Assembly: GCA_014871385.1 (NCBI GenBank)
Contig: CM026422.1
Location: 17,301,199-17,365,198 of the forward strand
Length of the DNA stretch: 64,000 nucleotides
Direction of reading: 5' to 3'
DNA from: Ceratodon purpureus
Taxonomy: Eukaryota; Streptophyta; Bryopsida; Pseudoditrichales; Ditrichaceae
The position numbers were made by a program, and so were the translations under genes. Numbering within the stretch: the first letter of the stretch is position 1; every line of letters begins with the position of its first letter. The notes beneath the pieces are model-generated. The model was given only the letters and a program-made list of their open reading frames with translations, was not told the DNA's origin and did no database searches. This document shows positions 2-62,807 of this stretch, piece after piece.

Positions 2-544
2 TTAGCCTAGAATCTTCATGGAAAATATGACCAACCAGTAGCCTATGCGAGTCGAATACTGAACCAGGCCGAGCGCAATTACTCTACCACAGAACGCGAA
101 GCTTTGGCCATGATTTATGCAGTAAAAAAGTTTAGACATTACTTACTTGGCAATAAATTTCGCTTCATGGTTGACCATCACAGTCTTTCTTACCTTGTCA
201 ATCAACCTCTGGTCACTGGGCGTGTGGCCCGATGGATCATGATACTCCTGGAATACGACTTTGAAGTGGTTTATGTTCCCGGGAAAAGACACGTAGTTGC
301 TGATTACTTATCCAGGGATTCCCAGGCAATCGAGGCAGGAATTGACGATTCATTTAATGAACCGTATCTTCAAACAGCCAGTATCACCATGGATTCACAA
401 GGGGATTGGCGCACAGATGTCATGGAATACTTAACCCAGGGAACCATACCCACAGGGCTTACAGGCACTAGGAAAACCAGTTTTGTCCGTACCACACTTC
501 CATACACCATAGTTCAGGGTCAGTTGTACCGCCGAACCGGATAA
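2..544 (+). pseudogene. gypsy RT/RNase H domain, 3' part, interrupted
   Basis: This is the RNase H region that follows reverse transcriptase in Ty3/gypsy polyproteins; it removes the RNA strand during cDNA synthesis. Visible blocks are YASRILNQAERNYSTTEREAL (about 50-110) with the conserved acidic/TE.E region, FRFMVDHHSL, RWIMILLEYDFEV and GKRHVVADYLSR. The frame is open upstream of the first ATG (104), so 104 is not a real start; the polyprotein enters from the left. A TAG sits at 8-10 within the conserved start of the domain, probably replacing a glutamine codon. The frame ends at TAA 542-544 where homology continues in another frame. Confidence 0.85.
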
Positions 545-1808
545 CACGCTCCGCTTGTGTGTACCGCTTTCACAACAGCAGACCATACTGTCAGCTCTAC
601 ACCATGGTCCTGCAGGAGGACACCAAGGCCCCGAGACTACCATAAAGAAAATCTTAACAGCCAAGTACTGGTGGCCAACACTTTACAAAGACGTATATAC
701 CTATATAAAAAATTGCCACGCCTGCCAAGTGGCAACTACTAATTTCCAACACCAAGGTAGAGTCCCTCTTAAATCCATACCACCGCTTGGGCCGTTCCAA
801 CGCTGGGGCCTGGATTTCGTAGGACCCATTCGCCCAGTCACACGTCAAGGGTACAAGTATATCCTAACTGCCACGGACTACACTACCAAATGGGTAGAAG
901 CTCGACCCCTTAGAAACAATACCGCTGTGGTCACCGCCACATTTATATACGAAAATATTATCACCAGATTCGGTTGCCCTCTAGAAATTGTATCCGATCA
1001 GGGCTCCCATTTTGTAAATTCGGTTATCGAGGATCTCCTGGACAATCATATCATCAAGCATAGGACTAGCACTGTCTACTACCCACAAGGCAACGGTCAA
1101 GCAGAATCAACTAATAAAACACTCATTAACATGCTTCGACGATTTGTTCACGCCAACCAGGGAGATTGGGATGACTGTTTACCTGCAGCCCTCTGGGCAT
1201 ACCGTGTAGCCACGAAAAGTGCCACCCAGGCCAGCCCATTTGAATTAGTTTACGGCACCCAGCCCCTGCTTCCCACAGAATACATTGCCCCGACCTTTAG
1301 TTCCCTGCAACCAAAGGATTACAGCCCCCATAGGGTCCTCGCAGCCAGACTCCAGGATATTCACCATCTAGAAGAAGTTCGGGCCCTGGCTACCCAGAAC
1401 ATCACAAGCAAACAGGAATTAACAGCCAAATATTTCCAGGCTTCCAAACCACCTAGGATTTTTCAAAAGGGTGATCAGGTGTTGTGGTGCCCCAGGGATC
1501 CTAAAATCAGGAAAACCAAATTTGAGTCAATTTGGAATGGTCCGTACCGAGTTCAATTGGTACTGCCCAATAACAGGGTACTATTGGTTAACAAGGATAA
1601 TTATGACCCCCAAGGCACCATAGTTAATACCACAAAATTAAAGCATTACCACTCTCTCAGCCCAGTTACCTTCCCTGTCCTAAGCTTGGGAGATATCCAT
1701 AGTTCCCTGGCTACCGAGGCACAGGAGCTGGCTCAAACATCCAATGACCCAGCCCCTCAAACCCAGGGGAGGAGCCCAGTACATCCCCCACAACGCAAGC
1801 ACCCATAA
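540..1808 (+). CDS. gypsy integrase
   Basis: Integrase inserts the retroelement cDNA into the host chromosome. The zinc-binding HHCC finger is at the N-terminus (LHHGPAGGH, then CHACQ). The catalytic core follows with GLDFVGPI and TDYTTKW (first Asp region), IVSDQGSHF (second Asp) and YYPQGNGQAES (catalytic Glu). The C-terminal GPY/F-type module is visible as SIWNGPYRV. No chromodomain follows. The frame is open from 540 but lies one base out of register with the RNase H frame. A single extra base near 539 explains this, or less likely a programmed shift. There is no good independent start codon. The integrase part is otherwise uninterrupted for about 420 codons. Confidence 0.9.
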   Translation, partial: DNTLRLCVPLSQQQTILSALHHGPAGGHQGPETTIKKILTAKYWWPTLYKDVYTYIKNCHACQVATTNFQHQGRVPLKSIPPLGPFQRWGLDFVGPIRPVTRQGYKYILTATDYTTKWVEARPLRNNTAVVTATFIYENIITRFGCPLEIVSDQGSHFVNSVIEDLLDNHIIKHRTSTVYYPQGNGQAESTNKTLINMLRRFVHANQGDWDDCLPAALWAYRVATKSATQASPFELVYGTQPLLPTEYIAPTFSSLQPKDYSPHRVLAARLQDIHHLEEVRALATQNITSKQELTAKYFQASKPPRIFQKGDQVLWCPRDPKIRKTKFESIWNGPYRVQLVLPNNRVLLVNKDNYDPQGTIVNTTKLKHYHSLSPVTFPVLSLGDIHSSLATEAQELAQTSNDPAPQTQGRSPVHPPQRKHP

Positions 1809-2368
1809 CCCAGCCATCCTTGATGTCAAACGTCAACTCCATCCATGGATTATTCACCAGGCTACAACAAGAACAAATTAGTATAGTATCAAATTCAGTA
1901 AAACACCATGATGGGCAACATACTCAAAAAACAGCTAACGACATGACTTCCAGGCCCCCTGAAATCCATGTTAGTCACATTCGAGTAGACTCAGGACAAT
2001 TTGACCATCAAACCCATGATTACCAGGGGACAACTCGGGTCAGCTCTAGATCCCGCAACACTAGGCCAGCGCCGCCACACTTCTCGCTAGGCAGTCATTG
2101 CTGCCTACAGCCGCCAAGGCCCCATCCCATCTGCGCCCACTTTCCCCACCCAGTCACACCATGCCCAAACCTTCACCCCTCGTCTCCCTCCTTGGCCCCC
2201 TGGTATTCCCACAGCTCCAGGAGACGCTCCAGGCGCCCAGCGGTCCGCAATAGAGCCGACTCTCCACTCTCTCACACTCCGCATTCCCTTGTATCTCCTC
2301 CTTGCACTCCCGCTGCCCTACACAGTAGCACACGCACATTAGACTGTAGCACTCACAACAGGGATACC

Positions 2369-3469
2369 ATGGGTCCGAAGAAGCAGCCGCCGTTCTTTGT
2401 ACCACGGCAAATCTTGGAGTGGAAGAGGCAGCCAGATCAGATATGGACATCCGCTCATGGCTTGGGCAGGTACTATACACTTCTGGAGGGCAAGGTCAAT
2501 ATCAAGCATTGCCATGATTTTGTGACATCCAACCGAGAGCAGCCCGAGGACGAGCAGTTCCCATCTGGCGTAGTCGACGGAGTCATGGTGCAGTACTCAA
2601 GCAGGTATCTATACAAGTTCTTTGGGTGGGACGGAACCGGAGCAACAGCGTGGAGCCCTTCATGCGCAGTCCCAGAACCAGACCTCACACCGTACGCCAA
2701 CATTCCTCGGAAAGAAGACAGGTACGAAATCTTTGCGTTTGGCCCAGTCTTGAAGGATCCATGGTTTGCAAGGATGCGAGGGGTCCTCAGCCAAGTGTAC
2801 TTTCAGAATAATTGTAACGGCATCCTGCCCGCACAGCTTCAGCTCTTACTCATGGCAGACAAGGGGGAACCGATTAACTGGGGGTTGTTGGTGGAGGAGA
2901 ATTTCAAGATACAGCTGCGGGGCTATCGCCGAAACCCGGAGTACTCAAGCCCCATCGGTCCATTTCTCTCAGCGTACATCGCGCATTTCCTTTCCTTCCA
3001 CAGACGGAACAATCAGCCACCGGTGATGGGCACCTTCCTCGACGTTCAGCGGGAAATCGCGGCAGCAGCAGCTCAGAGCCTCTTGCCCTCCAGCTCCAGC
3101 AATCGCCCACGATTGCTCTCCCCTGCGCCCACCATGGATATGGCCACGCCATCGCAGTTGGGACCTCACGCTGCCGAATTCCACGCCAAGCGCAACACCT
3201 TGACCGAGTGCATGGAGACCATGTTCCAGTTCGTACAAGGGGCCGAACAGCAGCATCAGGCCATGGACAGGGCACACCAGGAGTTCGAGGAGCGCATCAG
3301 GCGCAAGGCCACCCAAACAGTCCAAGCAGCCCAAATCCAGGCAGAAAAAAGGATCGCCACGGCACAGCTGGAGCACAGCATGGAGTTGGAAGAGACAACA
3401 CAAACCCTGCACAACCTTCGCGAACAAGTAAAGAATTTGGAGAGTGAGCTAGTCGCAACTCAAGCATTA
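2369..3469 (+). pseudogene. gypsy accessory (post-integrase) ORF, 5' half
   Basis: An ORF downstream of integrase, in the place where some plant gypsy elements carry extra genes. The first convincing ATG is at 2369 (MGPKKQPPFFVPRQ); the frame is open from 1820, but 1820-2368 is low-complexity Pro/Ser/His-rich. The middle part (WFARMRGVLSQVYFQ, KGEPINWGLLVEENF, IGPFLSAYIAHFL) loosely recalls the 'putative plant transposon protein' domain found in other plant elements; that is a guess from pattern only. The last 120 residues are a strong coiled coil (MDRAHQEFEERIRRKA, LHNLREQVKNLESEL). It stops where the 3470-14227 transposon is inserted, and the coiled coil resumes at 14228. Confidence 0.6.
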
Positions 3470-4231
3470 GGAGCAGTTTGGGGTCTCCAACGGGCCTTTT
3501 CCATGCTTTCCGTGCGAAAGTTTTGGGCATGCCCGTGCACTTTACCTGCTGGCACCAACTGTGCCAGCAGGTCGCCAAAAGCGAGCCAAATCGCGAATGG
3601 GGGGGTCCGGCCAATAGTCGCGCAGGAAGGCTTCCCTCCCCCGCGCGTGTAGTCCCGCAGGTCGAGAACGGAGCCTCTTCGCGCACGAAATTTGAGCATT
3701 GCAGAAGGGTGTCAGCGGTGGTGGGCATTATGAACGCCTGCGAAACTGACTCCACAGGCCACCTACCGAAATCGAATTGCCGCTCCCCCTTTGAGATGCA
3801 ACGTGCACAAGGTGTTGATGTCGAAATGCTGCCAACGGTCATTCCGAACCTCATGCGTTCCCCTGAGAGAGTTGTCGTCTTTGCGTTGTCAAGCAGGATG
3901 GAGCGGTGGAGGCCTCCAAAGGCTGGGCGAAGTTGTTCGATTTCGGTTGTGGGTGGTCACGCATTGTGCAGTAGAGATTTAGGGTTTAGCTGTAGTGGTC
4001 TTCCAACGCTGCCAGCGGTCTGCCATCCACATAGGTTGGAGAGAGTACCTGAGTTGGGAATTGGGGTTTCGGGATGAGGTTTTAGGGTAGGTCGTACCTT
4101 GGTTGCGAGGCCGTGGACGCAGGTTTCAGCCGTTCGTGATGGCGGAGGGTGTGTTGACAGCGTGTAGTTCTGGCGGTTGATGACAGCGACGACACCATTT
4201 GTAAGTTTTCGAGTTCACAGTCGAAAATTTC

Positions 4232-5398
4232 ATGCATTCTAGTGGTATGGCTTCACGGCCAAACTCCCTCGTACAGAGTGTCATTCTGCATAATACTCAA
4301 GACTTGGAGGGCAACTGGATCCCCATGAAGGTGGATCGTGATTCATGGGTTATGCTGCAACCAGCGTCGGATGGGCCTTGGGGTAGAGAGGCAAGGCGAC
4401 ATGGTGGAGAAAATTTTCGGGGGGCCTTCAAAGCGCAGATCAGAGATTTCTCTTGGATCTCCACGGAGCATGGAGCATGCGACCTCGATAAGGTGCTTGT
4501 GCAATATGCATATCAACCAAGGCATCTGCGCTTGGATCCTGCGGAGGCAGCAACCAAATTGGGAATGGCAAACTACCTGTACGCGTCGAGAGCACAGGAT
4601 TGGGTACATCCTGTATCTATCCTTGGTCCCATTCTTGTACTCCATGTTGAGATTGGGGAGGCAACACGGAATCGACAGAGCCACGCGGAGTTGCTGGACA
4701 TAGGTACATTCTTCCTTGGTGGTCTGTATTTGCCTCCAACAGGTGACACGCTGTACGGGAAGGTTGAAGCACTCCCGCTTCCAGGGTTCAACGATGTGGA
4801 GTGGCCTTTGCCAGACATGCACACATCTGAGGCGTTTAGAACAAAGCTCACTCTCGATTTTGCAAATGCTATGAAAGCAACAACTGGTAGCAGCTTCGTC
4901 CACCAGCAATGGTTTATGCCAATCCATGTTATGGTTGATTTGTTTGCGGTAGCTGCTGACAGCATTAGGCGGACACCTACATTGTTTGTTTTGAGTAGTC
5001 CATCCGAGGCTCTGCTGAGCAGTCTAATGAACCCAGGGTGGAACGAGAAGTTCCACATTGGCCAAGATGTCATCAAGTGCGTTGCCAACAGGACCAGCAT
5101 TGTTTTCCGCTATCACGTGGGAAGACAAACATTATACACCAGGTTCATGTATACAAGGTATAGGGGGGCTGCCAACAGTCAGTGGGAAGCGTTGGATCAC
5201 CTACCAGAGGAGGTGATGGTGGAAGTGTCTTGTATGTTTAGGGGGAACTTGCTGCCAACATTCGAAGTTGGCAAGGGTTGGCCAGTATCCCACCTGCGGC
5301 ACGAAATTGCAATGGCACTTGGAGATGACGTACCTGGGCAGTACAACCTGGTTTTGATAGAGGCCAACGGTGTTCGTGAGAAAAAGGTACGAGTCTAG
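4232..5398 (+). CDS. unrecognised transposon-borne ORF, 388 aa
   Basis: An uninterrupted ORF inside the 10.76-kb transposon, starting at ATG 4232 (a second ATG at 4247 is also possible). I do not recognise the family. No transmembrane segment, zinc finger or nuclease motif is apparent. The protein looks globular, with moderate charge, many aromatic residues and blocks such as HPVSILGPILVLHVEIGEA and PEEVMVEVSCMFRGNLLPTF. It lies alone on the plus strand near the left end; the other two genes of the element run the opposite way. An intact frame of this length in an otherwise decaying element suggests recent function. It could be a transposition accessory protein or a captured host gene. Confidence 0.55.
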   Translation: MHSSGMASRPNSLVQSVILHNTQDLEGNWIPMKVDRDSWVMLQPASDGPWGREARRHGGENFRGAFKAQIRDFSWISTEHGACDLDKVLVQYAYQPRHLRLDPAEAATKLGMANYLYASRAQDWVHPVSILGPILVLHVEIGEATRNRQSHAELLDIGTFFLGGLYLPPTGDTLYGKVEALPLPGFNDVEWPLPDMHTSEAFRTKLTLDFANAMKATTGSSFVHQQWFMPIHVMVDLFAVAADSIRRTPTLFVLSSPSEALLSSLMNPGWNEKFHIGQDVIKCVANRTSIVFRYHVGRQTLYTRFMYTRYRGAANSQWEALDHLPEEVMVEVSCMFRGNLLPTFEVGKGWPVSHLRHEIAMALGDDVPGQYNLVLIEANGVREKKVRV

Positions 5399-6346
5399 CC
5401 GAATTCATGTAGTCGTTTTGATGTGTTGGGAATTGGCTGTTCAGAGCTCCTTGCTGCCAGCAAACGAAAATGACAGGATTTGTTGGATGCAGATCAACCA
5501 GCGCCATGAGAGACACCTTACAGCTGCGGATGTCACGGTTCCCAAAAGGATGAAGATTGTGGTGGCGCCATTGACGGTGGAGCCTGCTGCCAGCGCAAAA
5601 TAAGAAAAGAAAAAAAATTGCATACAATAGAGCACATGACCCTTCAGAGGCAGAAAATGGAGTTTGGCACTTGACAAATATGAAGTAATTAGGAAGGAAT
5701 GTAAAGTTTCTTACTTCCTCCGAAGAGGCTGGCTCCTTCGTGAACCTGGTGCTCTGAACTGGCGATGGCGGGCATAATGCAGCCCTTGGTGCCAACAAAG
5801 AGGAAAAAAGGAAGGTTGCAAATAAAAAAAGAACCACGCTTGATTCTAATAGAACAAGATAAAAATAAAAAACAGTTGTACATAAGAGATGAAGTAGGTC
5901 GCAGATGGTAAATAACAACAATGGCCAAAATTGAAAGGGACCATGGTGGCGAATAATGAAATAAGAAAAAAAAAAAAATACCAACGGTGAAATAAAAAAT
6001 GCAACCTGACTGCATAGAAGAAGGGAAATACAAAGGAAAGAACTTCGATGAGGGCACAATGCTCTCAGACAGCGCGGGCTTGAAGAGAACAACAGCTCCA
6101 AAGATAAAATGGCTATGCCAAAGAGCAGCCCTTGCTGTCGGCAGTCCACAATAAAGAAGAAATACAGTTGCGAATAAAAAGGAAGGGTTACAAGAATGCC
6201 ATATCTTTCAAAGAGACATGGCAGTCCAGAGGCAAATTGTTTTCAAGTTCGGAAAAGTTTAAGAAAGGTGGCCCATAAAAGTCCGGACCAGAAGTCGCTG
6301 CCAGCAAACCCCTAACCCGGCCTACAAAACTATCCAAGGTGGGAAT
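5399..6346. other. non-coding stretch inside the large transposon
   Basis: A-rich sequence with runs of A on the plus strand. No convincing coding frame on either strand; the 303-aa minus-strand frame at 6149-5238 is hydrophobic low-complexity caused by the A runs. GCTGCCAGC-type motifs occur at about 5450, 5585 and 6296. It separates the convergent ends of the 4232-5398 gene and the 6347-8390 gene, so it must hold both 3' untranslated regions. Confidence 0.5.
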
Positions 6347-8390
6347 CTACTCCACGTTTGCGTTTGTGGCAATTGCCTCAACAAGGCTCGACAGTCCCTC
6401 CATGTTGGTGTCGTCCTCGTTCTTCTCTGCTTGAGGTGATCCTTGCGTGGTGGCGGATGAGTCCTTGTTCCCATCTCCAGATAGGGCTGCCTGGGTCTCC
6501 TGAGGAGAGCGTTGCGTGGGATCGAACGCCAGGGAGTCTGAGTCGGGGAGAGCATCCTCTGCAGTTGCTGGCAACAAACAAGAGTTAGAAAACAAGAAAA
6601 TGTAAATGTAACAACAAGGCAGGCAACAAGAAATGGGTAGATGGGATGAGGGGCCACGAACCTTGGTCGCCCTTGGCCTTCTTCCACGGAAGCGCGGCCA
6701 CTGAGGGGGCAGCGGGCCTCTTGCTGCCAACACGTGGTGAAGCGGGCTCGGCCAGAAGGATCTCCTCCGTGAGGCGTAGTTCCTCCGCGGCCTTGGAGTC
6801 AAGGTCGAAGCCCCACTGCCCAAGCCACCCTCCAGTCATCCCCCGCTCGCATCGACGGCATCGGGCGTCTTGAGAGAAGACTGCCTCAAACATACAATGA
6901 GGATGTGCCAAGCAGCCGCAGAACAAAGGCACGCAGCCGGTGTCAACGAAGTAACGCTCGCAGAAGGGGCATGGGTCGTTGAGGGCTATTGGCAACACCT
7001 GGAACTCCCGGGGGTAACGAGCCAACACCTTCTGCGGCCGCAAGAAAGCTGATGCCAACTCCAAGGCCGAGATCTCCGCTGTCAGCGCGGAGACCTCAAC
7101 ATGCCGTCTCTGCTCATCGGCTTCTATCTCCTCCAACTTCTTGTAGACCCTGTCAATGCGGGCCTGGGCCTCAAGGAGTGCCTTGCTTGCAAGCCCCAGC
7201 TTGTCTTGGCCTAAGCGGGCCGCCTGATCAAAGCGCCTCTTCTCTTGATCGTTGCCATCAGCCGCGGCCTTCTTGGCGGCCTCGCGGGCGGAGAAGATGT
7301 CGTCGTAGAGCTTGGACTCCTCGGCCTCCTTGGCCTTGATGTAGTCCCGCTGGGTTGCAAGGTCGACCTTCACGCGGTCCCGGCTGGCCTCCACCTTCAG
7401 AAGTGCCGCCTCCAAGGACTGCTTCTTGAGGCGCTGCTGCTCCAGGACCTGCTTCGGATCCGTTGCCACCAAGGGCTGCACCTTGATGGCAGCGGCAGCA
7501 GGGGTCGTCACGGCCCTCTTCTCAGCCACGGCCTTCTTCTCGACCACGGCCTTGACAGGGGCGGGCACGGATCTAGGACCCCTTGCCTTCTTCGCCTCCG
7601 CGGCCGTGATGGCCTTGGAGGTGGCTCCGACTGCCTTGGCTCCTCCGCTCGCAGCCGCCCCTCCTCCCTTGCCCTTGCTGACAGCACCGGGGACGTGGCC
7701 TGCGAGGAAGTCGATGATGGCCTCAATCTGCTCCCTCAAGGCTGGGGGTGTCAACTTTTGCGGATTACGCCCTGGCAGCTTCTCGCGCCCCTTCACAATT
7801 GCCTCCGCCTTCTGGGCGAAGTTGACATCCACGCCCTCCTCAAAGTAGAGGTGGCAAGCCCGAAGGAAGGTGGTCCCGAATGCCCAATTGTCGGGGTCAC
7901 CTCCATAGGTCCACCGGTACATCTCCAAGTACTTCCTCTGGGCCTCCGGATCCTCACAGTTAGCAACGTAGTGCCGACCAGAAGAACGCTCTGGCCATCT
8001 GTCGATGAAGTCCTTCTTCCTGCAGTGCTTCTCGCTGCTGAGGTCACTGAACTTCAACCCCTTGTTGGAGAGCTGCAAGGTGCGGGCGAAGAAGTCCTCC
8101 TCGTAATCCGCAGCCTGCCTACCCAGCAGAAATGGGGCGAGGTGGTGGAGCTGTGCATGAAGTGCAGGGGGTAAGCCCTCCAAGTCGAACGCATCATCCC
8201 ATGGCGTCTCAACATCGTTGGCATCCTCCTTGCTGTCAGCAAGCTCGACGACCTCCTTCTTCACGACGGCCTCCTTCTTCTCAGTGCGATCCTCCTCCCG
8301 AGAAGCCGCGGCCTTTCCCTTCCTACGGCTCGACATCCCTGGCGCTGGTAGTGCAAAAACAACACGTTTTACGATTGGGGGATCGCGCAT
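6347..8390 (-). CDS. coiled-coil protein with RING-like Cys/His cluster (transposon-borne)
   Basis: Minus-strand gene in the large transposon. The long exon runs from 8390 (or from an acceptor at about 8395) to 6662. A 94-bp intron (6661-6568) joins it to a last exon 6567-6347 that reads ATAEDALPDSDSL and ends NANVE. Reading through the donor instead gives a meaningless hydrophobic tail. Layout: basic N-terminus; a globular part with NWAFGTTFLRACHLYFEEG; an Ala/Lys-rich linker; a long coiled coil; then a Cys/His cluster CPFCERYF, CGCLAHPHC, CRRCERG resembling a RING finger; then an acidic tail. A nuclear, possibly ubiquitin-related role is inference only. An upstream coiled-coil exon (about 9384-8616) may belong to the same gene through a GTGAGG donor. 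Confidence 0.6.
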
Positions 8391-8615
8391 GGCAGCTGAA
8401 AGGAGAGAAACGGACAGGGTATTATTCTTGCGGATTAGACTAGTTACATTTTCACTCTAAAAATCCTGTAGAACTAAGGACTCCGGCGGCCATGGCTGAA
8501 CCACTGTCTACTTCGAATACACCATGGCCGATTCACTCCAACAGCTAATTAAAAAAAACCATGCGAGGAGGCTCGGAGGAGAGAGCTGAAAACCAGCAGC
8601 TTACCTCACCGAAGT

Positions 8616-9384
8616 CCGAAGCAGAATTGTTGTTGCTCCTCTCCAGCTCGCCCCTCGCGCCTCGCAGCTCGTCTCTTGCGCCTCCAGAAATGTTCGCCTC
8701 CACAACTCGCCCATGCGCGCCTCTGCAGCTCACCCTTTCTTCAGCCTCCGCGACTCGCCCCTTGCGCGTCTGCAGCTCCGCTCCTTGCGCCTCGCGGCAC
8801 CCGTGCTACGACTTTGCTCCTCCGCAACTCGCCGTTGCGCGCCTCCTGCGCTCCTCCCTTGCGCCTCCGCAGCGGCCCTCCGCAGCTCGCCTCCGCAGCC
8901 CCTTGCACCCCAGCAGCCCCTTGCGCCTCCGCAGCTGCCCTCCTCAGCTCGCCTCCGCAGCCCCTTGCACCCCCGCAGCCCCTTGCGCCTCTGCAGCTGC
9001 CCTCCGCAGCTCGCCTCCGCAGCCCCTTGCACCCCCGCAGCCCCTTGTGCCTCCTCGCGCCCTTTGCGCCTCCGCAGCTCCTCGCAGCTCTTCGCTACCC
9101 CTTGCGCCTCCGCAGCTCCTTGCGCCTGAGCGAGCGTGCAATGGAGCTCCCTCTTGAGCTCCTTGCAGCTCAGTCGCAGGTCGTCCCTTGCGCCCGAGCT
9201 CCGCTGCCCCCTCCTCCACGGCCCGCACCGCACGCTGCAGCTCCTTTGAGCTGCACTCCGCAACCTCGAACGGTTTCTTAGACTCCTCGGCTGCTGCCCT
9301 CGGCGTCACGTGCTCCCGATCAGCAACGGCACGAAGACGCCCTCCTTCGTATCCACGGTCTCTCCCCAGCACCCACAGCTCCAA
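8616..9384 (-). pseudogene. possible upstream coiled-coil exon, repeat-disrupted
   Basis: Minus-strand frames here encode Glu/Arg/Ala-rich coiled-coil sequence (AEESKKPFEVAECSSKELQ, ARGELERSNNNSASDF), but the frame changes between segments. Just after SASDF is a donor-like GTGAGGTAAG. Splicing from it to the acceptor near 8395 keeps frame with the downstream gene at 8390. The middle (about 8860-9130) is a GC-rich minisatellite coding Ala/Gln/Gly repeats in several frames, and its length changes probably destroyed the reading frame. It may equally be 5' untranslated sequence. Confidence 0.35.
8860..9130. repeat. GC-rich minisatellite
   Basis: Imperfect tandem copies of a unit built from CCTCCGCAGC, TCGCCTCCGCAG and CCCCTTGCACCC blocks, with two nearly identical consecutive units around 8890-9040. 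It lies inside the large transposon, upstream of the minus-strand coiled-coil gene. All six frames are open for long stretches because of composition, so ORFs here are not evidence of genes. Confidence 0.7.
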
Positions 9385-10253
9385 TTGAAAAACAAAGTAA
9401 AGCTCGCGCGCCTGCTGGAAGCAAGGAGAGCGGCCTCGACAGCAAGAAGGCGCGGACTTGTGCTGGAGTCAACCACGTGCGGCGTGTGGGAAGAAGAGAA
9501 GAACTGAGAGGGGAACCCGTGCTGGAGTCAACCACCTGTGCGTCCTTGGTTAGGGGGGTTCAGGGTCTCAAGTACAGTTTAATGAAGGGAGGTTACGGAG
9601 TTGGTGGGAAGCTCTCATATCCTCCTTAATTGCCACTCCATGGAAATCATTGCCATGGCCCTAAACCACACATCCCCATTTGTTGTGGGTACTTAGAAAA
9701 TCATCTCAAAAATTAAAATCTTAATTTTAGTGGGACCGGTACATATGATTACTAAGACCCATTAATTAAGGAGATTACTAATTGCATTCCTTGGTCCCAT
9801 TCGTGAGTTATCCACAAAACAAGTTTAAGGGAGAACCATGGTCTAACCCAATAAAAAAAAAAACATTGTTGGCAGCCACATTCTACATAGCTAGAAATTA
9901 ATTACTAAGACACAGAGCTCTCAAATCACACACGGCCATTGCTCGCGTCGTCACTATCCTCTTTGCTACCAGCGACCTCTCCGTCAGTGGAGTTACTACC
10001 TTCTCAATGGGTGCCTCGTGAATAATTATGGAGATTAACATAGCAATGCATAGCCATTTTAGGGAATTGCTCGAAAAAATCCTCATTTTTTGATAAATCT
10101 ATCCGTAAATGGCTATTCTAGAATGAAACCAAAAAACATGTTAAAGATGTTAAACCACTGTCTACTCCGATCAAAAAAATAAAAAAAAATAAAAAACTTG
10201 CTACATTATAGATGTCCATCCAATGAGTTTAGAACGCATAATTTGTACTCAAT
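9385..10253. other. AT-rich non-coding segment in the large transposon
   Basis: Lower GC than the surrounding transposon and no supported coding frame. A near-identical string, AACCACTGTCTACT, occurs at about 8498 and again at about 10152, which could mark a nested insertion or local duplication, but I could not find matching termini. It probably includes 3' sequence of the transposase-like gene that ends at 10254. Confidence 0.35.
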
Positions 10254-13200
10254 TCATACAGGCTCGTTGCCAGCGTCATCGCTGTCCACGTTGTTGCCAG
10301 CGTCGTCACCGTCAGTTGAGTTGCGTCCTTCTTCAAGATCCACATTGTTGCCCTCCTCCCCGGGGTCATCTTCGATGGCAGATCCTCTTGCTTGATCATT
10401 GTTGGCTCCATCACCTCCAACGGTGTTATCACACACCCAAGCTTTGCCAACACGCCGTCGCCTTGACCGCCAATTCTCCAAAGCCCTGGCAGCATTTGAT
10501 CGATGCCACTGTTCTCGCCTTCTACGTCTAGCCTCCATGCGGGCCTCATCGTCCGGGGTATTTAGAACCCTGGTGCACTCTAATTTCTTCTTATACCGAT
10601 ACTGTATATTTCGGTACCAATGTTGGAATTGTTGCAAAATAACACTGATGCGCTCTTTGCCACTACCGTGAGCTGTATGCGCTTGATTCGCTGCCTTCGC
10701 TTGATGATGGGATTTCTCCATACCCTGGCAACTCCATACGGCCAGACTACCGTATTCCTCCACAAACCAACTGCCATGCCTGACAATCACATGCTGTCAA
10801 CAGCCACTCCAAGGTTAGTCCTGGATAGAGAATTGACAAAAGTGAGGTCAGCCATCAACCCCTAATTCATCCCAAACCTCGTTCATATAACTCACCATGT
10901 AGTGCGACACATGCTCCTCTCCGAAGGCCTCCAAAAATGTTCTCCCCCACGTTTCTATCTTCCCTTTGAACTGGAGTCGTTGTTCTGCTGTCAGCACCAA
11001 GCCGCTGAAATATGGTAGAACCTCTTCAAAGGCTTGCCACATAGCAGCCCTTGCCCTACGATGTGCACCGCCGCCACTATTATTGCTCTCTGCTTGACAT
11101 ATGTCTTTCCAGGCCTTGTCGTTTCCAGACCATACGCTTGGTTTAAATAGTCTGCTAGCAACAACCCCACTGAAAGATGGCTTCTGTGGCACATTCCCTG
11201 TGCTGCCACTCAGTTTCGGATCCTTTCTAATCTCCACATTGCCACCGTGAGCCCCGATAGCTGACAAGGACTTCTCCATTTGCTCTATAGCTGTAGCCCT
11301 CAGTCTTTGATCTTGTATGTTCCAGACATAAATGATGTGTTGATGCACAATCTTCTCCGCTAGGCGAACTAGGGCGTGAAGTGTACAAATGTGCACTCTT
11401 TGCAACGGAATTGGCAAGATAGGCCTCCACCTTGTATGTGCACGCATGTCACATGGTTCTGGCTCCACATAGTTGGCAAACAGTCCCCTCACCAAGTTCG
11501 GTTTCCCACGTTTTCTGATGGCAGCACTCGCCTGGCTTGCTGTCCCTACGGTAGGCTTAGCCCTCTTCTGCTCGCAGTATATGCAGTTCATCGCACACGA
11601 CGGCCCCGACTGAAGCCCGTACATACACTTGATCGTCTTCATGTTCGCAGCGAGATGCCACTCCACATGGAATTCTCCAACTTCAGGGACCGTGAGTTTC
11701 TCGCCACTGGACTGTGCTGCAATCACAGATGGAAATTTGGATTTCCCAAATATCCACGACAGAACTTCGTAGGACTCTTTTTCCACTTGAAAGGTTGCCA
11801 CTGGCCAGATTTCCTGCTCCGACTGGACTGAGAAAAACAGGGCATGGTTTCTCTGAATGTCTGGGTCGAGCGCCCTATTCATCAATGTGATGCTGACCCG
11901 TTCAAACTTCTTGCCATTGACAATCTCGGCCTCGTCCAATTTCATGACAAATACCAGCGGTGCCCCTCTTAACTCTGTGGAAACATGGCGAGTGGATGTG
12001 TAAGTCACGGTTAATTGATAAATAACCCTGCTGGCAGCAAACTTTGAAAACAACAGTCTGAGGTGATTACGTTACCTTCTTCCGTGATGCCGTAGAAGAT
12101 CACCATGCTCCTTTGGACCACCTCAAGGTCTGTGAATAGGGAATTCTTGTCAGTCAAAACGACTTCCTTTACCATGTCCTCGGACTTCTTGTTCTTCTTA
12201 GAACTTGCTGGCAGCGTAAGTCGACCTTCAGCATGGTAGTATTCGCCAATATACTGTGGCAGGTTTGCATTTAACTCCTGCCGAAGCAGTTTCACGTGAT
12301 AGGGGCTCGGTAAAATACTCCCGGAGACTCCTTTGTTCAGAGCAGCAATGGGAGCCTTCACAGATTTGTAGAGAGCACCATATCCCCGATGGGAAACCCC
12401 TGCCTGGTCGCAAGCAGCAAGAATTTTGTCCGGTCCAATACTCTTACCAATCGATTTCAGCACATTTTTCGCAATATCTGACTGAACATGTGCCATTGCA
12501 GGCTGAGAAGCGAGCGCTACACCTTCATGCCGTGACAAAATTCGAGCTAGTGCTACTGCAGTCCTATTTTGGGACTCTTTATCCCCCCGCAGTCGAGAGC
12601 ACTTCCGGTTCTCTCGGTTCCTTTCAACAACAAACTGCACCACATCTGGTTGCAGCACTGTCCGCACAAGCTTCACTCTTGCTTTTGATCCACCTGATCC
12701 AGGTTTTAACTCGTGAATCCCTCTGAGAGCCCTCCTCCTATTTTGCATGCCCATGGGGGTCTCCTTCTCGAAGCTGGCCCTCCGCTGGCAACGGTCAACG
12801 TCTTCTTGGAGACCCCGCACATGGCGCTCCAATTGCTCCACCCTTTGGGCATGGCAATCACGGACAGCCTGTAATTCAGCTTGCAAATCCCTGCATTTCT
12901 TCTCTAACTCAAGGCAACAAATTCTCCCCAATTGGACATCTTGGGCTGCCCTTGAGTTGCTGGCCAGAGCTTCGCCTCTAAGCTCAAGCACTTCTTCGCT
13001 CAACTATGCCAACTGGATCCGCGTCTCCTCCTGTGTAGAACCATGTACACAATGATCCAGCAGCCTGTGTGTATATCCGCGAAGACCCTGCTCTCCATGA
13101 CATATGAATTCAACGAACTCTTTTAGCGACTTGATTGGAGGTGGCTTCCCTGTCATTGGGTCAACAGGGTAAATGTCTCCATTGATCCACAAGTCAATGT

Positions 13201-13348
13201 TCGTGTCTCCACGCAACCTCCGTGTTGGAAACGAGCTCCTCATGCACAGCTCCACTTGCGTAGAACCTCGTCTCATGACCGGGGCATAGCGTGTGTCCAG
13301 TGCAAAGTGGGGAATGTACTGATTGCTTCGTTCAGCCCTTGCTGCCAT
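10254..13348 (-). CDS. transposase-like protein of the large TIR element (one in-frame TAG)
   Basis: Minus-strand gene of three exons: 13348-12076, 11974-10860 and 10793-10254. GT/AG introns restore one frame of about 970 codons. The only lesion is an amber TAG at 13006-13004 between RIQLA and LSEEVLELRG. Blocks fit a DDE-type transposase family widespread in eukaryotes (recalled as pattern, not named): APLVFVMKLDEAE (candidate first Asp); EWHLAANMKTIKCMYGL followed by a CIYC pair; PLQRVHICTLHALVR; and SCQGMEKSHHQAKAA (candidate catalytic Glu), followed by an Arg-rich acidic tail. The N-terminus has a coiled coil. At the second Asp position relatives usually read GD-K; here AAN-K has Asn, so this copy may be catalytically dead. 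Start chosen at MAARAERSNQ. Confidence 0.65.
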
Positions 13349-14227
13349 CGTGGACCCTATAGTCGGTAATCTTGATTGAATCTCCCCCGGTCACACTTGG
13401 TGATTTGCTGTTATTCGAGAGAACTTGTTCTGATCTTCGGACACCTTCTACACCCAATGAAAAACTGAATTCACAACCTCAAATACTCCGAACCTAATTC
13501 GATAGACCTGCGTGGCATCTACAAGCGCTATCGACCACGAAACCTACATTGCCTTATGCCGTTGTGGCAGCAAGGGCTAATGAAATCGAAATTCAAATTG
13601 CTCAAAAACCCAGTAGCCCCTGAACACCCCACAAAGGTTTATCGAATTAGGTTAACTTACCTTCCCTTCAAGTACATCAGTTTTCATCTCTTCGTTGAAA
13701 CCTTGGTCGCCGACTGAGAACAACCCCTCGCCGCCGTCGCTGCCAGCGGACGCTGCCAAGAAATGAATTGCAATCTCAATTTTGCTCCTCCGGTCTGGGG
13801 CGCCATCGCCACTCCGAATCTTTGGAGCAAATCACATACGATTGTGCGTCCCACAGTGCCAACAACGACTTGCTTGAAGCAAAACAGGGCGCTTCGTTTT
13901 CTTGGTGCTGAACGGCGTAGAGCCGGTGGCGCCATCGCGCCCAGACCGTTGTGGCAACAACTCGAACAATCCGTGGATCGAGGCAACGGATCGAGGCAGT
14001 TCATTAATCGCCGAGCAATAAATCCCACTCCTTGGCGCTCAACAACCACCGTCCACGCCCTCTCGCCAACGAGGACCAACTGTGCCACGCAACTCCCGTC
14101 CGTCTCCAAAAGGCCGCTTCGGGCAGCGTTTCAGACCCCTGCTAACAGCGACAGAGGGGGTTTTGGGCAGGCAGCCCACCTAACCCGGGCTGTCTTACAA
14201 GGCCCGTTGGAGACCTCATTTTTCCCC
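13349..14227. other. right subterminal region of the large transposon
   Basis: Upstream of the transposase-like gene, so its promoter and 5' untranslated region should be here. Overlapping frames on both strands (13684-14109 and 13763-14230) look like compositional shadows. GCTGCCAGCGGACGCTGCC at about 13739 is another copy of the element's dispersed motif. The last 45 bp match the left end of the 430-bp relative at 55125. Confidence 0.5.
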
Positions 14228-15356
14228 TAATGAGCATGTGGATACGCTTACCAAGGAGAAGGCGATTTTGTTGGACCGGAACAAGACCTTGGAAATCCAG
14301 AGTGCGGAGGCTCAAGCCCGCTGCAAAGCCTTGGTTGCCGATAACACTTCCTTGAAGCAGGGCCAGGGATCCTCATCAACCACAGCAGCCACACCCGAGG
14401 AGATCCTAAAATTACAGCAGGAGAAGATTGCCATGGAACAGGCCAAGGAAACCTTCGAAGCCAACAAAACAGGGTGGGTACATACTGCAGCTAACCTGAT
14501 CGCATCTCAAGCTTACGAGTTTCTCCGCAGCCACCCACCAACCACTGAGGCCCCGCCTCCAGGATACTTGGATCACTGCATCGATCAAGCTATTGTGGCT
14601 CTGGAACTGGAACAATCGGAGCATGACTGGGAGACAACGGACATGGATATGGACATCCTGTGCAACCCACACGAGACGACCTTACCCATGTCCATCACCC
14701 CCCAGACACTCCCCGAGATTTCTCCAGTAGTCTCGCTACCCTCGGCACCTAGTTCCAGCTCGGGCCCTGCATGGACTACACCAGTTCTCCCCTCTAACCT
14801 TGGCTCGGCATGGCCTGAGCGAGACAACCCCGAGGAGCGCGTGGATATCCCGGACCACCTGACCGACGTGGAGGTAACGCCACAGCCCTCCCCGCGTCTG
14901 CCACAACCCCGCCAAGCATCTCCAAGTCCATCCATGGTACCATTTCGTCCCAAATCCTTCAAAGTTCATAAAGACGCACTTAAAAAGATCGAGGAAAAGA
15001 ACAACTTAGAAGTTCAGGCGAGTGATGAGAGTGAAGCCGAGGAAGAGTTGGACCTAGCCATTAGCGAAGTCCAGAAGTACTTTACCAGTAATGCTGATCT
15101 CGTAGCCATCTACAGTAACCCGGAGTCCGAGCATGTTCAGTGTCCCGCATGTAATAAGCTATTGGGAAAGACCGTGTACGATGTATACCAACATGCCATT
15201 ACATCACGCGCCAAACACAACCTAATCCATAAGGGTGTTGCTGCAGCCATAGCGGCATTCTACGGAGGCCAAGCACCCCCCAGGCGACAAGTACAGGTGC
15301 CTCACGAGGAGACCCGACCCGATAGACGACCAGCTCACCGACGAAGCCGTGGCTAA
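14228..15356 (+). pseudogene. gypsy accessory ORF, 3' half, with SGS3-like zinc finger
   Basis: Continuation of the gypsy third ORF after the nested transposon; the frame is open from 14229 and the GTG at 14238 is not a real start. It begins with coiled coil (TLTKEKAILLDRNKTLEIQ), passes through an acidic Pro/Ser linker and ends with a compact finger: CPACNKLLGKTVYDVYQHA then AKH and LIHKGVAAAIAAFYG. The spacing C-x2-C-x13-H plus the downstream AKH and the helix resembles the zf-XS finger of plant SGS3-like RNA-silencing proteins. That is my pattern reading, not a search result. Without the transposon the two halves would give a protein of about 740 residues. Confidence 0.55.
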
Positions 15357-33750: not shown

Positions 33751-34122
33751 GTATGCATCCAGTTGCATGTGTTGTGAGTTGCATGGTGTGGGATGTTATT
33801 CTGGATCTGATCTGTGCAATAGTGATAAGTTGTTATTTTCTTTTAAGATCTAAGTACGTTTGCTCTACTTTCTACCATGCTAGGCTGCGGATCAGTTTCT
33901 TTAGAAAAGAGAGTAGCGGATCAGTTTACACCCTGTTATCACTGCAGGTATTTAATATGTGTCAATTGTTTTGCAGATTGTGCGGAGCCTAGAGTCAAGA
34001 TGGAGATGGAGTTTTTCCAGTTTGATTTTAGTTTTTTTGTATTTTTCTTTTTCTGATTTAGCCTTTTTTTTGGTTTTCTTGAATAAACTCGTTTTTTTTT
34101 TTTTCGAAGATCGATTTGTGTG

Positions 34123-37100
34123 ATGGCTTCTGTAAGAGTATCCTCTCGTTCAACGAAAGGGAAGAGAGGGGTGAGAGTCACGGCTTTTGAGCCTTTTCTT
34201 GTCTCAACGGGTGTATCCCCTGTACCGAAGAAAAAGAGAGGGGGGAAGAGGTCTGTGAAATCAGTCATCGCGGCTAAGGATGATTCGTCAGCAGGTGGAC
34301 CTGCTGATGATGATTCTTTGGCATTTCCGTCTGGTCAGGAGGATTCTTTAGTGATTCCTTCTACTGATGTTGATTTTGCTCCTACAGTGACAGGTTGTGC
34401 CGTAGGTGCAGACATGTACCAACATGTGTTTCGTAGTCTTTTTGATCTTTTGCCGCCAAGTCCAGTGAGTGAACGAGAGATCAATGACTTCTTCAGTGTT
34501 CCTGATGTTCGTGGTACTTCTCCTGTAACAACTGTTGGTCCGAGTGTAAATCTTGAGAGTGGGAATCTTGTGTGTGGGACTGTTGAGTGTGGGAATGTTG
34601 AGAGCGTGAATGCTGGATTTAGTGACTCTTCGGATTTGGAATCTGATCGAGTTCTTGCAGTTCCTGTTGTTGATCAACAGCCGCCAGTTCGAGTTCTTGC
34701 AGTTCCTGTTGTTGATCAACAGCCGCCAGTTCGAAGTACGTCAAGTCAGGCCTGTACGTCAAGTCAGTCCAGTCAGTCCCGTTTTCTTCCCCTTGATCCA
34801 ACACTTGTGAATCGTGTCAAGGAACTGAAGAGAGGTAAGAGTTTTAAAAACAACAATTGGGCCATAAATCGCCTTAATGCATGGAGAAGTGAGGTTGGTA
34901 AGGAGCTTACCCCTATTGATAAAATGCCATATGAGGAGTTGTCTGGTGTCCTGCTAGAGTTTTTTCTATGCATCTGTAAGGATTCCGGTGAGAGGTATCC
35001 ATCTGGATCTCTCAGAAATTTTCATAAGTCATTTAATCGCATCCTCAGGGATGCTCAGAGACTTCGAATTTCTCAGACGAAAGTTAATGAGGAACCATTC
35101 TCCATTGAAACGAACCCATACTTTGTGGAGGTAAATTCTACAGTGGTTGCCGCTATGGAGAAGTCTAGAGATGCAGGTGCTAACAAGTAGAGGCGTAAGC
35201 CAAAGTGTTTATCCTTTGCTGAGGAGGCGTTGATCCTTGGTCATCCATCACAGTCACTCTCCAGCAATGTTGGTGTGCTCAAGAGAATCTTATGGTTCAA
35301 CACATCACAGTTTATGATTCGTGGGAACACTGAGATGTATAAGTTGAGGTTCAAAGATTTTACTCAAGGAATAGACGATCACGGTCGATGTTATGTTGAG
35401 TAAGTTCCTGTACATTCCCTTTGCTTGCTTTTTTTAAATGCTTGTTTTGAACTATCAGGTTCAAATTGGCTTGCAGACACTGGGGTTTGCAGTTTGCGTT
35501 TATTGAGCCATCGATGCATGTGCTTTGATTGTAAGTGTTTAGGTATGATTGTGCTATTTGGTAAGACATAAACTGTACAATCATCTGTCGGAGAGAGTTT
35601 CCTTTTTTTCATGCTACTCGTTTTTTCTCACATCCTGGTTAATTTTTCTTTCATTTCCTCGGCTCGTTGTTTAGATGAAAAGTGCTTATCAGTATCCTAT
35701 ATACTATGGGCTTCCGAGTTGTCATATGAATTAGTATGAGTTGTCATGTGAGTTCCCCCTTGTTTCGAAGTCTTCCTGTTTATGTGTGTGATGCATGCTG
35801 AGCTGTATGGTATTACCTTGACGGTCTTTTGGTTTGTGTATGCTCCGTCGCTTAACTCCAGTGTCCAGTTCAATGGGAGCTGGGAGTGGTTCAAACAGAA
35901 TGTTGCTGTGTCATATAGACCTTTGTCGAATGATTTGTCCTGTAGTACACTATACAAATAAACCGTAGTCTATATGTACATGGGCTAGGGGATTTTAGAC
36001 AGCAAGGACAGTATAGTAAAAATGACCTTGATCGATTGCTTGAATTTTTTTTTTTTAATTTATTTTCACGTGTGCTTGCTGTTAAGGTTTATTTCGTTTG
36101 AGTCCCCCTTTCTCTCGACGTCCTTATGTTTCCGTGTATGCTCCATGCTGAACTAAGAGATGTTTCCTTTCATTTCCGTTGGTTCTTAGGTGCTCTGTCG
36201 CCTAACTCCTATTTACAGTTCACAATGAAGTTGTAAGTGATTTTCAGACAGAATGTTGCTTTCTCGAAGAGCCCTTTTGGCGAATGCTTTAGATTGTAAT
36301 ACACGGTACAGATGAGCTGTAGAGGTCATGTCCATGGGCCATGGGGTTCCAGACAATGTTTCGTTGGATTTTGGAACATATGTTTGTTTCTGGTTAGAGC
36401 ATATGTAATCAGTTTGACTTATGAATTTTGCTCGTTACTAATTGTTTACTAACTGTTTGTCTGTGCTTGTTTTTTAGGTACAATGAGCGCACCTCAAAGG
36501 CTTATGTTGTAGCCCTCAACCGCTGTCAGGACGAAGATTTTCGCCCTCCTGTTCGTGTCTATCACCCTGCGGTGGTGGAGACTTGGAGAGTATATTCCCT
36601 CCACTTGGCTGATGATATGAAAGAGGGAAACCTTTTCTTGTCTCCCATTCAACCTCATCCGATCAGTTCTCAAGTGTGGTATAAGCATACGAATGTTGGT
36701 GAGAAGAAGCTGCGGCAGTGGTTGAACCACATGGCAAGAGAGGCAGGCATTGCAGGTGATGTTACAAATAAAAGTGGCAGACGTACTGGTATCACGAGAA
36801 TGGCGCTAAAGGATACTCCAAGGGACGTTATGTGTCAGATAACTGGGCACAAGAGTGCTTCATCACTTGATAGGTGATTAATTCTTCTGTCCAATTGATT
36901 AATGCTTTGCGTACTTTGAGTTCACGTACTTTGGATAAGTCTTTCTGTAAATTTGGATTCCTTGTCGTTAGTCTCTAAGATGGGCTTTTGTTTGAGTTAT
37001 ATATTTGTTTGAGGTACACTGAGTTAGTTTGTCAAGGTCCTGATTTCTGTGTCGTTCGTTGCATGTTTGGTTGCGAAGCTGTGTGTGTGTTGATGAGCTG

Positions 37101-38795
37101 CGTGAGCTCAATGACGATGCGCATCCTCGTGGGCTGTGGCTCTTGAGAGACGGTTATGGAATGCTAGATTTCCATTCCTGGTTTAGTGCCATGTGCGAGT
37201 GTTCATATTGTGAACTTGGGGAGGTGAAGTAATTAGGGTGTTCTGTATTGGTATTCAAGTGACGCTCTTGTAAGGTCGGGGCTCTAATTTTTGTTGAGGT
37301 AAATAATTAGCATTTTGTCGAGCTGAGTAATACAGAATTAAGCACTAGAGTAGACGAATTCAGTTTCTGTTATAAGTACGATCCAGAGGTTCAAGTCAAG
37401 TCGTTTTCCAATACTGGTAACAGTTGTAGAAGCGTTGATATGATATTGCTCGAGGCCAGTGATCAGCATGATTCTTAGTTGCTGTCGTCTTGAATATAAT
37501 GCTCAGCTTGTCTTCGGTTCTTGTAATCCATTTCTAATTCCATCCTGTGTGCAGAGTTTTGATTCTACTTGTAACTCTGATTAATGCTGTTTGGATTGAT
37601 GCTGTGTGGTTTTCTGAGGCACAGGTATGATGACACTTTGTTGTTGAAAAGGGAAGCGGCTTTGAAGGCTATTGCGACAGATAGCGAAACTGGGGATTAT
37701 CACCAAATCAAAAAACAACTTTTTAAAGAGCTTAGTAATGGAGGGAGTGGCTCCACTTATTCTCAGTCTAATAGTCTTGCTGTTGTCCCGTATTTGCCTG
37801 AGTTGCCATCTCCTCAGATTACTGATGCAAGATTATTTGCAGATTTTCAGATTCCTCCAATTCGTAACTCTGTTTCTCAGAGTTTGTTTACTCCTGGCCA
37901 GTTTTCCAGTCCATTACAATGCCTTCCCTGCAATGCATTCTCTGCAATGCATTCGCAGGTAGGTGCAGTTGATTGTGTTTCTAATGAGGCTGTACCCAGC
38001 CTTGGGCATCAGGCTGTACCCAATTTTGGGCATCAGGCTGTACCCAATTTTGGGCATCAGACTGGACCCAATCTTGGGCATCAGTCTCGACCCAATTTCA
38101 AGCATCAGGCTGGACGCTACGCTGGACCGAACCTTGGGAGTACCAGCTCGTTTTCTTGTGAAATTCATTGCCCTCGGCAATTTTATCAGGACAAGAATCT
38201 TGATCCTCTCAGACCTGTGAGGAATTCTGTTGGCCCTCAGCCATTTGTTCGCCCAGTATATAAGAGTGTCCCTAAGAAGATACCTGCGCAGTTTGCACGC
38301 TCTCCCGGGCAAATTCTTCGAGATGTTGAGTTTTTACCGAGTGGTAATGACAGATTTATGTACCGTCCAGAGCACGGTTCTACTAGCACTAGTAATGTCT
38401 CAGAAACTTCTCGTTCAGTTCCAGATGCTTACGATGGTGAGCTAGATCAAATAATTCTGGATTATGACTTAGAGCTTTTTGAGCGTGGGAAGATTGTGAG
38501 AGCAGGTCGTGAACAGGTGAAGGAGAAAGAGTCAGATGCAGATTCGGGGCTGGGAGCTGTTGTGAAGCCATATACTTCTGCGGTTCAGCAGCAACCAAAG
38601 TTGCAGGTTCAGCAGCAACCGGAGTTGCAGGTTCAGCAGCAGCCCGAGGTTCAGGTGCAGCCACAAGTGCATCGGAGTCAAGTAGCTGCAGCGCCATTTA
38701 GCAATGTTAGTCAATTCATACAGATTAACAACACTATGGATCTGAATTTAGAGAAGATTATGAGAGGGTTTTTTAACCCCAACAATCAGAATTGA
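34123..38795 (+). CDS. Crypton-like tyrosine recombinase (DUF3504-type), one in-frame TAG
   Basis: Three exons, 34123-35399, 36478-36873 and 37625-38795, give 947 codons. The only lesion is TAG at 35188-35190 (codon 356). The N-terminus is basic and disordered, with a 36-base tandem duplication coding LAVPVVDQQPPVR twice. A core-binding-like domain follows (NNWAINRLNAWRSEVGKEL, YPSGSLRNFHKSFNRIL). The catalytic parts are MYKLRFKDF (box I Arg), NERTSK (Lys), SGRRTGITRM (box II Arg; the usual His before it is Lys here), ITGHKSASSLDRYDD (His and nucleophile Tyr, the Tyr codon being at 37626 in exon 3). The C-terminus has 8-residue repeats like AVPNFGHQ and a Gln-rich tract. This is the fold used by Crypton transposons and KIAA1958/ZMYM-like host genes. 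Confidence 0.75.
37985..38125 (+). repeat. 24-base coding tandem repeat in the recombinase gene
   Basis: About five to six copies of a 24-base unit coding variants of AVPNFGHQ, two of them identical. It lies in the third exon, after the catalytic domain. Whole-codon length keeps the frame. Confidence 0.8.
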
Positions 38796-61472: not shown

Positions 61473-62807
61473 TCAAGCGCGGTCTTGTACAAGGAAAGCA
61501 GCAAGGCGCCTGCGCTTCTGCTCCCCCTGTACCTCATCCCAAACCGGCCCATCCACGTTTGGATTCTCTTCAATCAGATCGTCGTCAACAACCGGAGCCA
61601 TGCCCTCCCGTTGGAGGATGGCAAGAAGTCTTTCAACCTCTTCGGAGCTCTGACCAAGGAGTAGGTTAGGTAAAATGCAACAAGACACGACGACGTCGGG
61701 GAGAAGCGTGATGTGCAGGTCTGATGCACTGTGCAGTTCTCTAAAGGTCTGCTTTAAAATTCCGAAAGCATTTTCAACAACTGACCTTGCACGGGATAGC
61801 ATCCGATTGAAGTGGAGCTCCTGCACTGATCTGCGCCCACCGGGGATGTCTCTATATGGGGTAATCAACCAAGGTAATATGGGATAGCCCTTATCTCCGA
61901 TGAGATAAGGCACAAATCCCTCCACCGAGTCAGTAGGATCGAACAATGTATTTGTCACAGCCTTGTGGTAGAGCACAGAGCGCCTCAACTGCCTAGCATC
62001 GTTTGTAGACCCCGGCATTCCGACAGAGATGTCGATGAATTTCTTGTTGCGGTCTACAACGGCTTGGCATTGCATAGTAAACCCCCCACTTTTAAAATAA
62101 AAGTAGTCCTCTGGGCTCACGTTTGGCTTCCGGATGTGGAAATGTGTCCCGTCTATAGCACCAGCAACTCCAGGCAAACCTGAGAACTCCCGAAATTGGC
62201 CCATGATCATCTGCAAGTGATTGCCGGAGGGCCAGGAAATCTCCCCCCTGAGCTCATCATTTATCGCCTTCACAACGTCTTTTATAATTCCAGAGGCTGT
62301 GCTTGTGCCGATGGCAAAAAACTCGGAGCACAGGAGAAGAGAAGCACCTTGACAGAGTTTAAAAAGGGTGCAGGCAACTCTGACTATGGGCGGAATGGCA
62401 AGCCGATAATGTGTATTCTGACGCTCAATGTGAGGTCTGAGGAGATTGGTTAGATTAAAAACTGCGGCCTTTGTCATTCTAAAGTTTTCCAACCATCGAT
62501 TGTCATCGTATTCCTGTAACACAAAACGAGAGAACCAGGACGTGGAGCGAGGTAATACCCACCAGCCAAGCTCCTGGTCAAGGAGCGTTGTGGCATGCAC
62601 GATTCAAAAATCGTGCAGTACAGAGGCTACTATTGTGTTCATATTAACTAGAGTATCGTGGACCTGCCCCACGTCCACTGCTGCATCTCACTCGTCAGGA
62701 GGTACAGCTTCACCCGGGCGAAACATAGTATCAACAACGTTTTGCAATAGCAAAACAAGCGAGGGTAGGAAGAAGGCAACATTCCTAGGGTCCAGCCTTT
62801 GGTCCAT
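61473..62807 (-). pseudogene. Harbinger transposase (DDE_Tnp_4 / HARBI1-like), two in-frame TGA
   Basis: Catalyses excision and insertion at TWA sites. Frame runs from ATG 62807 (MDQRLDPRNVAFFLPSL) to 61473, 444 codons. TGA at 62690-62688 and 62606-62604 lie in the N-terminal part; the remaining 375 codons are uninterrupted. The catalytic triad is present: AIDGTHFHI (Asp), GMPGSTNDARQL (Asp), RARSVVENAFGILK (Glu). The helix-turn-helix-like N-terminal region FRMTKAAVFNLTNLLRPHI and the LYHKAVT block are also typical. A shorter protein could begin at 62600 only with a GTG start, so the copy is probably inactive. Confidence 0.9.

Follow-up and report, generated by a model that had tools for sequence, protein, structure and literature searches.

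The locus described here raises the question of what kind of transposon carries at least three unfamiliar genes between one pair of inverted ends, and how such an element joins its target. It lies in a 64,000-nucleotide stretch of contig CM026422.1 of the moss Ceratodon purpureus (fire moss), in the following called the window. A sequence-only reading had placed a terminal inverted repeat (TIR) transposon at positions 3470 to 14227 and had suspected an undescribed large lineage. The element is real, but its true span is 3465 to 14232 (10,768 bp, termini CATTAGG...CCTAATG), as the outermost CATTA/TAATG is common to 17 full-length copies. Its insertions show neither a target site duplication (TSD) nor a loss of target bases, and its transposase gene is accompanied by two partner genes. 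We consider it probable that the element is a cut-and-paste DNA transposon of the CACTA-like (CMCT) group of DDE transposases, probably of the Lanisha lineage, which is joined bluntly to its target, has long-standing partner genes, and encodes a protein of its own that binds a dispersed palindrome.

Copies and target sites

The left TIR (3465–3498, + strand) reads CATTAGGAGCAG, and the right TIR (14199–14232, − strand) is its imperfect complement, so that the matching inverted ends described earlier extend over 34 nt at 82% identity. Twenty copies were examined, with the window copy counted among them. The search for full-length copies with the same ends yielded 17 of these 20, with lengths of 10,768–11,270 bp and with CATTA/TAATG termini throughout, save for single mismatches. 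The right end was not found within the stretch read for copies L004 and L006. Copy L014 (with L032; contig C7, left end 11556253–11556683, minus strand) is internally deleted to 2,692 bp and keeps both ends, which means that non-autonomous copies exist. Pairwise, the full copies are 92–100% identical, and some groups reach 99–100%, which points to recent bursts. In the genome searched (362.5 Mb in 151 contigs, one of them of 110.5 Mb), the first 431 bp of the element have at least 40 matches at 98–100% identity (best 40 of 823 candidates), and transposase exon 2 has at least 110 at 92–100% (110 scored of 1080 candidates). The element was thus recently active and is present in more than 100 closely similar copies.

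The window copy interrupts an open reading frame (ORF) downstream of a Ty3/gypsy integrase. The 5' part of this ORF occupies 1748–3464 (+ strand) and resumes at 14233–15353, and it is unbroken at the empty sites, so that the insertion inside a gypsy gene proposed from the sequence is borne out. The target stretch has 14 matches in the genome, the window's own two halves included; two of the 14 span the whole query and hold 200 bases for 200, at 99% and 97% identity. The interrupted ORF stands whole in L040. Four further insertions could be compared with their empty sites. For L009, each of the 40 matches listed has the same number of bases as the query (162 or 163), at 100% identity, and the empty site of L003 is a stretch of L006 with 93.9% identity over 800 bases and a contiguous junction. 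The other two belong to a related family, here called family X: the empty sites of L059/L060 hold 80 bases for 80 in 33 of the 40 matches listed, and those of L069/L070 do so in 6 matches listed, plus one of 78 bases. At a third family X insertion (L053/L054), the reading frame of the interrupted gene 1, one of the partner genes, is continuous across the junction. Thus, six insertions in two families have a TSD of zero, judged by empty sites or by frame continuity, and the element inserts without target duplication and without loss of bases. L018 is consistent with the same result, although the relative that serves as its empty site has only 79% identity.

No constant TSD was found across 18 insertions of the window family and 10 of family X. 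An 'AT' duplication inside a CATG target was ruled out by the empty sites, as were TSDs of 2–3 bp, since the empty sites hold exactly the left plus the right flank. The TTA/TAA that had been taken for a TSD is part of the element, because it lies within the CATTA/TAATG termini that the full-length copies have in common. As for target choice, 25 of the 28 insertions have A or T three bases to the left of the junction (p 0.00017, one of 12 positions examined), and 21 of 28 have A or T at the corresponding position to the right (p 0.04).

Two observations accompany the target sites. The integrase and the long extra ORF that follows it lie at window 11–3464 plus 14233–15356 (+ strand); the extra ORF apparently contains a coiled coil, and no Pfam match above the cut-off was found for it. 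The L053/L054 insertion (C6:64735009–64755040) is a case of nested transposition, in which a family X element has landed in the gene 1 of a second member of the group.

Transposase and partner genes

The transposase-like gene had been described as spliced, and it does consist of three exons on the − strand (12076–13348, 10860–11974, and 10254–10793), which together encode 975 aa. The surroundings of its splice sites are identical in the four copies compared, except that the final junction differs by a base or two. Judged by its sequence, the window copy is dead: exon 1 contains a stop codon at 13004–13006 (codon 115), and in exon 2 an Asn (11643–11645) replaces the second of the putative catalytic Asp residues. 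The position of this Asp was called in advance from the window's Asn, and the Asp is present in all 16 other full-length copies. All three exons are open in 10 of the 17 full-length copies (L002, L005, L007, L008, L010, L011, L015, L016, L017, and L018). For most of the copy pairs computed, the ratio of nonsynonymous to synonymous changes (dN/dS) lies below 1, with very few changes underlying it; an exception is one pair in exon 1 (0.0021 versus 0), and 3 of the 28 pair-by-exon comparisons were not computable due to unequal lengths.

The candidate catalytic residues, assigned by motif, are D438 (codon 11934–11936), D535, and E822 (codon 10716–10718 in exon 3, which also carries GMEKSHH and an acidic tail). 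The residues follow the order D-D-C(2)C-H(4)H-E, and in three families the motifs CIYC and HICTLH lie between D535 and E822. Two of these families were reached through a search pattern that was designed to skip the window family's own codon. The pattern has 70 sites in the genome and none in the reversed control; the two families read from these sites are 57% and 59% identical to the window family in exon 2. In both, exon 2 retains D438, D535 (Asn in the window copy), CIYC, and HICTLH unchanged, and GMEKSHH recurs in exon 3. The pattern sites L043 and L045–L048 are broken or partial. A comparable arrangement is found in transposase-like proteins of Rhizophagus and Hydra.

Gene 1 lies on the + strand. 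Its first exon (4247–5386, 380 aa, with the start codon placed by that of a relative) had been read as an intact 388-aa ORF of no recognised family; the gene indeed lacks a Pfam match above the cut-off, while this ORF is now regarded as the first of two predicted exons that encode 432 aa. The second exon (5445–5603, 52 aa and a stop codon) would follow a GT/AG intron at 5387–5444. Of the 17 copies, 16 have an open exon 1, and among the places listed for the two genes, gene 1 lies within 12 kb of at least 81 of the 110 scored transposase places. Gene 2 is on the − strand and comprises exon 1 (6662–8336), with a conserved N-terminal region, a coiled coil, and a RING-like C/H cluster, and exon 2 (6347–6558), joined to it by a predicted splice. 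Read by eye, the cluster has the form C-x2-C...C-x-C-x2-H-x2-C...C-x2-C. The clusters of two gene 2 relatives score 0.0026, which misses the family cut-off, and 0.064 against zf-RING_2. As had been reported, the element has at least three genes, and none of its proteins passes the Pfam cut-off; the positive controls, namely the window's Harbinger transposase and its integrase, both do. Upstream of gene 2, a GC-rich tandem repeat (8856–9127; 62-bp and shorter units) lies in a region that aligns poorly between subfamilies.

Family X, whose transposase is the one at 57% identity, shows how far the gene set reaches. Its ends begin with CATTAGAGATTATTTTGGGTCT; of the 40 matches listed for the left end, 19 are whole and 16 cover the TIR only. 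Ten pairs of 34-bp TIR matches delimit spans of approximately 20.0–27.7 kb, which may include nested insertions; pairings of about 42, 48, 65, and 186 kb were left out, as were two TIR matches without a partner. An early candidate for the right end, about 9.9 kb from the left one, was ruled out by the 34-bp TIR match located 20–28 kb away in ten other copies. The sequence read covers the first 12.6 kb of the C1 copy and the last 7.7 kb of the copy at C6:43468076–43488286. The former carries the transposase together with one gene 2 relative (35% identical). In the latter, a further gene 2 relative (30%), which has the RING-like cluster, is accompanied by a relative of gene 1 that matches in two pieces at 53% and 49% (E 2e-106), and a transposase pattern site lies at 43485948, near the opposite end. 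The gene 1 relative overturned an interim view that family X lacks gene 1. In L071, gene 2 and gene 1 are each split over more than one open stretch, which implies breaks or introns there. When both copies are combined, gene order and orientation match those of the window element, except for the extra gene 2 copy. That the three genes might not be inherited together was examined, and the opposite was found: judging by these matches, the transposase, gene 1, and gene 2 form a co-inherited set in the window family and in a distant relative.

The 110-Mb contig is probably a sex chromosome. PMC8000587 puts the U and the V chromosome of C. purpureus at over 100 Mb each, equal to about 30% of a 360-Mb genome. 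The relatives are concentrated on this contig, with 53 of the 70 pattern sites versus 30% of the genome, while the window family shows a small excess there (45 of the 110 transposase places scored and 39 of the 108 gene 1 places).

A dispersed palindrome

The 9-bp palindrome GYTGNCARC occurs in 24 dispersed copies between 3828 and 13747, in exons, introns, and spacers alike. In 200 shuffles of the element with dinucleotides kept, the count averaged 1.29 and never exceeded 7, and the remaining 53 kb of the window contain 9 copies. Every one of the 17 full-length copies has 24–28 palindromes, compared with 7 in 41.9 kb of flanks. In family X, none was found in the 12.6 kb read and one in the 7.7 kb. 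The idea that the palindrome tracks the presence of gene 1 was dropped once gene 1 had been found in family X.

One could attribute the palindrome to composition, recoding, or chance, given that the element contains GC-rich repeats and that palindromes occur in coding exons too. The excess over shuffles that keep dinucleotides, the constancy in all 17 copies with few palindromes in the flanks, and the near absence from family X speak against such a by-product, which we judge rather improbable. A weak additional point is that palindrome columns vary by 0.4–4.2% among four copies versus 4.1–7.5% elsewhere, as exons also vary little.

Among known systems, the pattern resembles that of VANDAL21 and its VANC protein, where a plant transposon likewise has a dense short motif throughout and the motif differs between related elements (PMC5735166). 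The same source places VANC21 mainly in non-coding regions and its motif YAGTATTAY often in tandem repeats, whereas the motif of the moss element is a palindrome and is found in exons as well; the likeness is one of pattern only.

Placing the element among known transposons

According to PMC12730594, transposases of the CMCT clade have C(2)C and H(3–4)H between the second D and the E, and the elements have CA..TG ends in most cases and TSDs of 2–5 bp. The same source names Lanisha as an EnSpm-like superfamily proposed in 2020 by the Ceratodon purpureus genome authors Maumus, McDaniel, and Carey (Repbase Reports). CIYC and HICTLH provide the first feature in the moss element, and its termini are CA..TG. 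By description, it thus shares with Lanisha probably the host, an EnSpm-like transposase, the CMCT residue order, and the ends usual in the clade, while the clade to which Lanisha belongs is said there to make TSDs of 2–5 bp and the moss element makes none. Since residues and ends fit CMCT and the TSD does not, we regard the element as CMCT-like and probably Lanisha rather than as a proven member. For the same reason, namely a motif order that fits CMCT and a name that probably already exists, an undescribed lineage in the strict sense is unlikely. CMCT transposases have an RNase H fold with a zinc insert.

In the mechanism that we propose, the transposase from the three-exon gene would bind the CATTAG...CTAATG ends, and as a DDE enzyme it would excise the element and join it to unstaggered cuts in the target. 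With both target strands cut at the same position, no target bases would be duplicated. Genes 1 and 2 are long-standing partners whose products would help to assemble the complex or counter silencing, and one protein of the element would bind the approximately 25 palindromes, either for end assembly or for desilencing, by analogy with VANC in the VANDAL elements of Arabidopsis. A more specific picture can be put forward tentatively, as possible rather than probable: a lineage of plant DNA transposons of 10.8 to about 28 kb with unstaggered cuts without TSD and a three-gene core (a CMCT-like transposase, the 432-aa protein, and a coiled-coil RING-like protein), in one family of which some 25 palindromic sites would have been acquired for a self-encoded DNA-binding protein that serves anti-silencing or complex assembly.

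Several results weigh against this placement and mechanism. The TSD of 2–5 bp expected for CMCT is absent from the six insertions in two families, and no sequence-profile match of the protein to any transposase was found. Two structure predictions of the transposase have low confidence, with a predicted local distance difference test (pLDDT) of 38.8 and 37.6. No relative was found outside the C. purpureus genome in a search that covered viral contigs and prokaryote genomes. Moreover, flank identities exceed chance (2 bp in 7 of 28 insertions versus 2.2 expected, 3 bp in 3 of 28 versus 0.22), an excess that may reflect some rule of target choice, although the repeat existed before the insertion in the three of these cases for which an empty site is at hand (AG in the window, ATG in L059, and TCA in L069). 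Two of the empty-site searches comprised 10 and 7 insertions, and the matches listed covered two (both of family X) and one (L009) of them, respectively.

The strongest competing explanation is a lineage apart from Lanisha and from all named ones, with its own blunt insertion chemistry and with CMCT-like residues acquired by convergence or deep descent. The zero TSD, as opposed to the clade's 2–5 bp, would fit it, and so would the failure of the partner genes to reach the Pfam cut-off. On the other hand, Lanisha was proposed by the authors of the Ceratodon genome and is described as EnSpm-like (PMC12730594), and the element is an abundant EnSpm-like family in what is probably that same genome; we therefore consider a separate lineage unlikely.

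A diverged but ordinary CACTA/EnSpm element is less likely still. CACTA/EnSpm elements are of comparable size and carry several genes; the moss element shares with them the residue order D, D, C(2)C, H(4)H, E, the CA..TG ends, and its length, and CACTA elements are abundant in this genome. However, even with E values up to 10 allowed, the spliced transposase gave no hit to Transposase_21, whereas the genome's CACTA genes reach about 1e-67 to 1e-73, and with this positive control plain CACTA was ruled out. The ends are CATTAGG instead of CAC..., there is no 3-bp TSD, and the partner genes are different and have no known relatives. Transposase_21 genes themselves are very abundant (150 scored of 1940 candidates, most of those scored without a stop in the matched stretch).

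A PIF/Harbinger (PHIS) element with extra genes, with TTA/TAA as its TSD or as a Spy-like member without one, is highly improbable: the ends and flanks are superficially alike and Spy likewise lacks TSDs (PMC4482050), but TTA/TAA sits within the conserved ends in place of a 3-bp TWA TSD, the transposase carries CIYC and HICTLH, and DDE_Tnp_4 fails to match it even at E values as high as 10, as already supposed from its motifs, whereas the window's own Harbinger gene gives 3.4e-31, a positive control with which membership was ruled out. Spy itself differs by its transposase and by its preference for AAATTT (same source); the moss element shows no such target, only the weak A/T preference at the third left base. 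The C(2)C and H(3–4)H signature is also a feature of Transib and RAG1, as stated in PMC12730594; neither RAG1 nor Transib was among the sequence matches of the transposase to solved chains.

Elsewhere in the window, the Harbinger gene used as a control (61476–62603, − strand) is an open 376-aa transposase frame and marks a second DNA transposon. Two long ORFs on the + strand (34087–35187 and 37581–38795) have no Pfam match; the first may resemble the N-terminal part of a tyrosine recombinase of the Crypton-like type.

DDE transposases nearly always stagger their target cuts and thereby leave a TSD, and annotators find elements by this mark. A young, high-copy plant lineage without TSD could consequently escape TSD-based tools, and it raises the question of how strand transfer is arranged in space. 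Since many similar copies retain open genes, direct tests of the chemistry, of what the partner proteins do, and of the motif are feasible.

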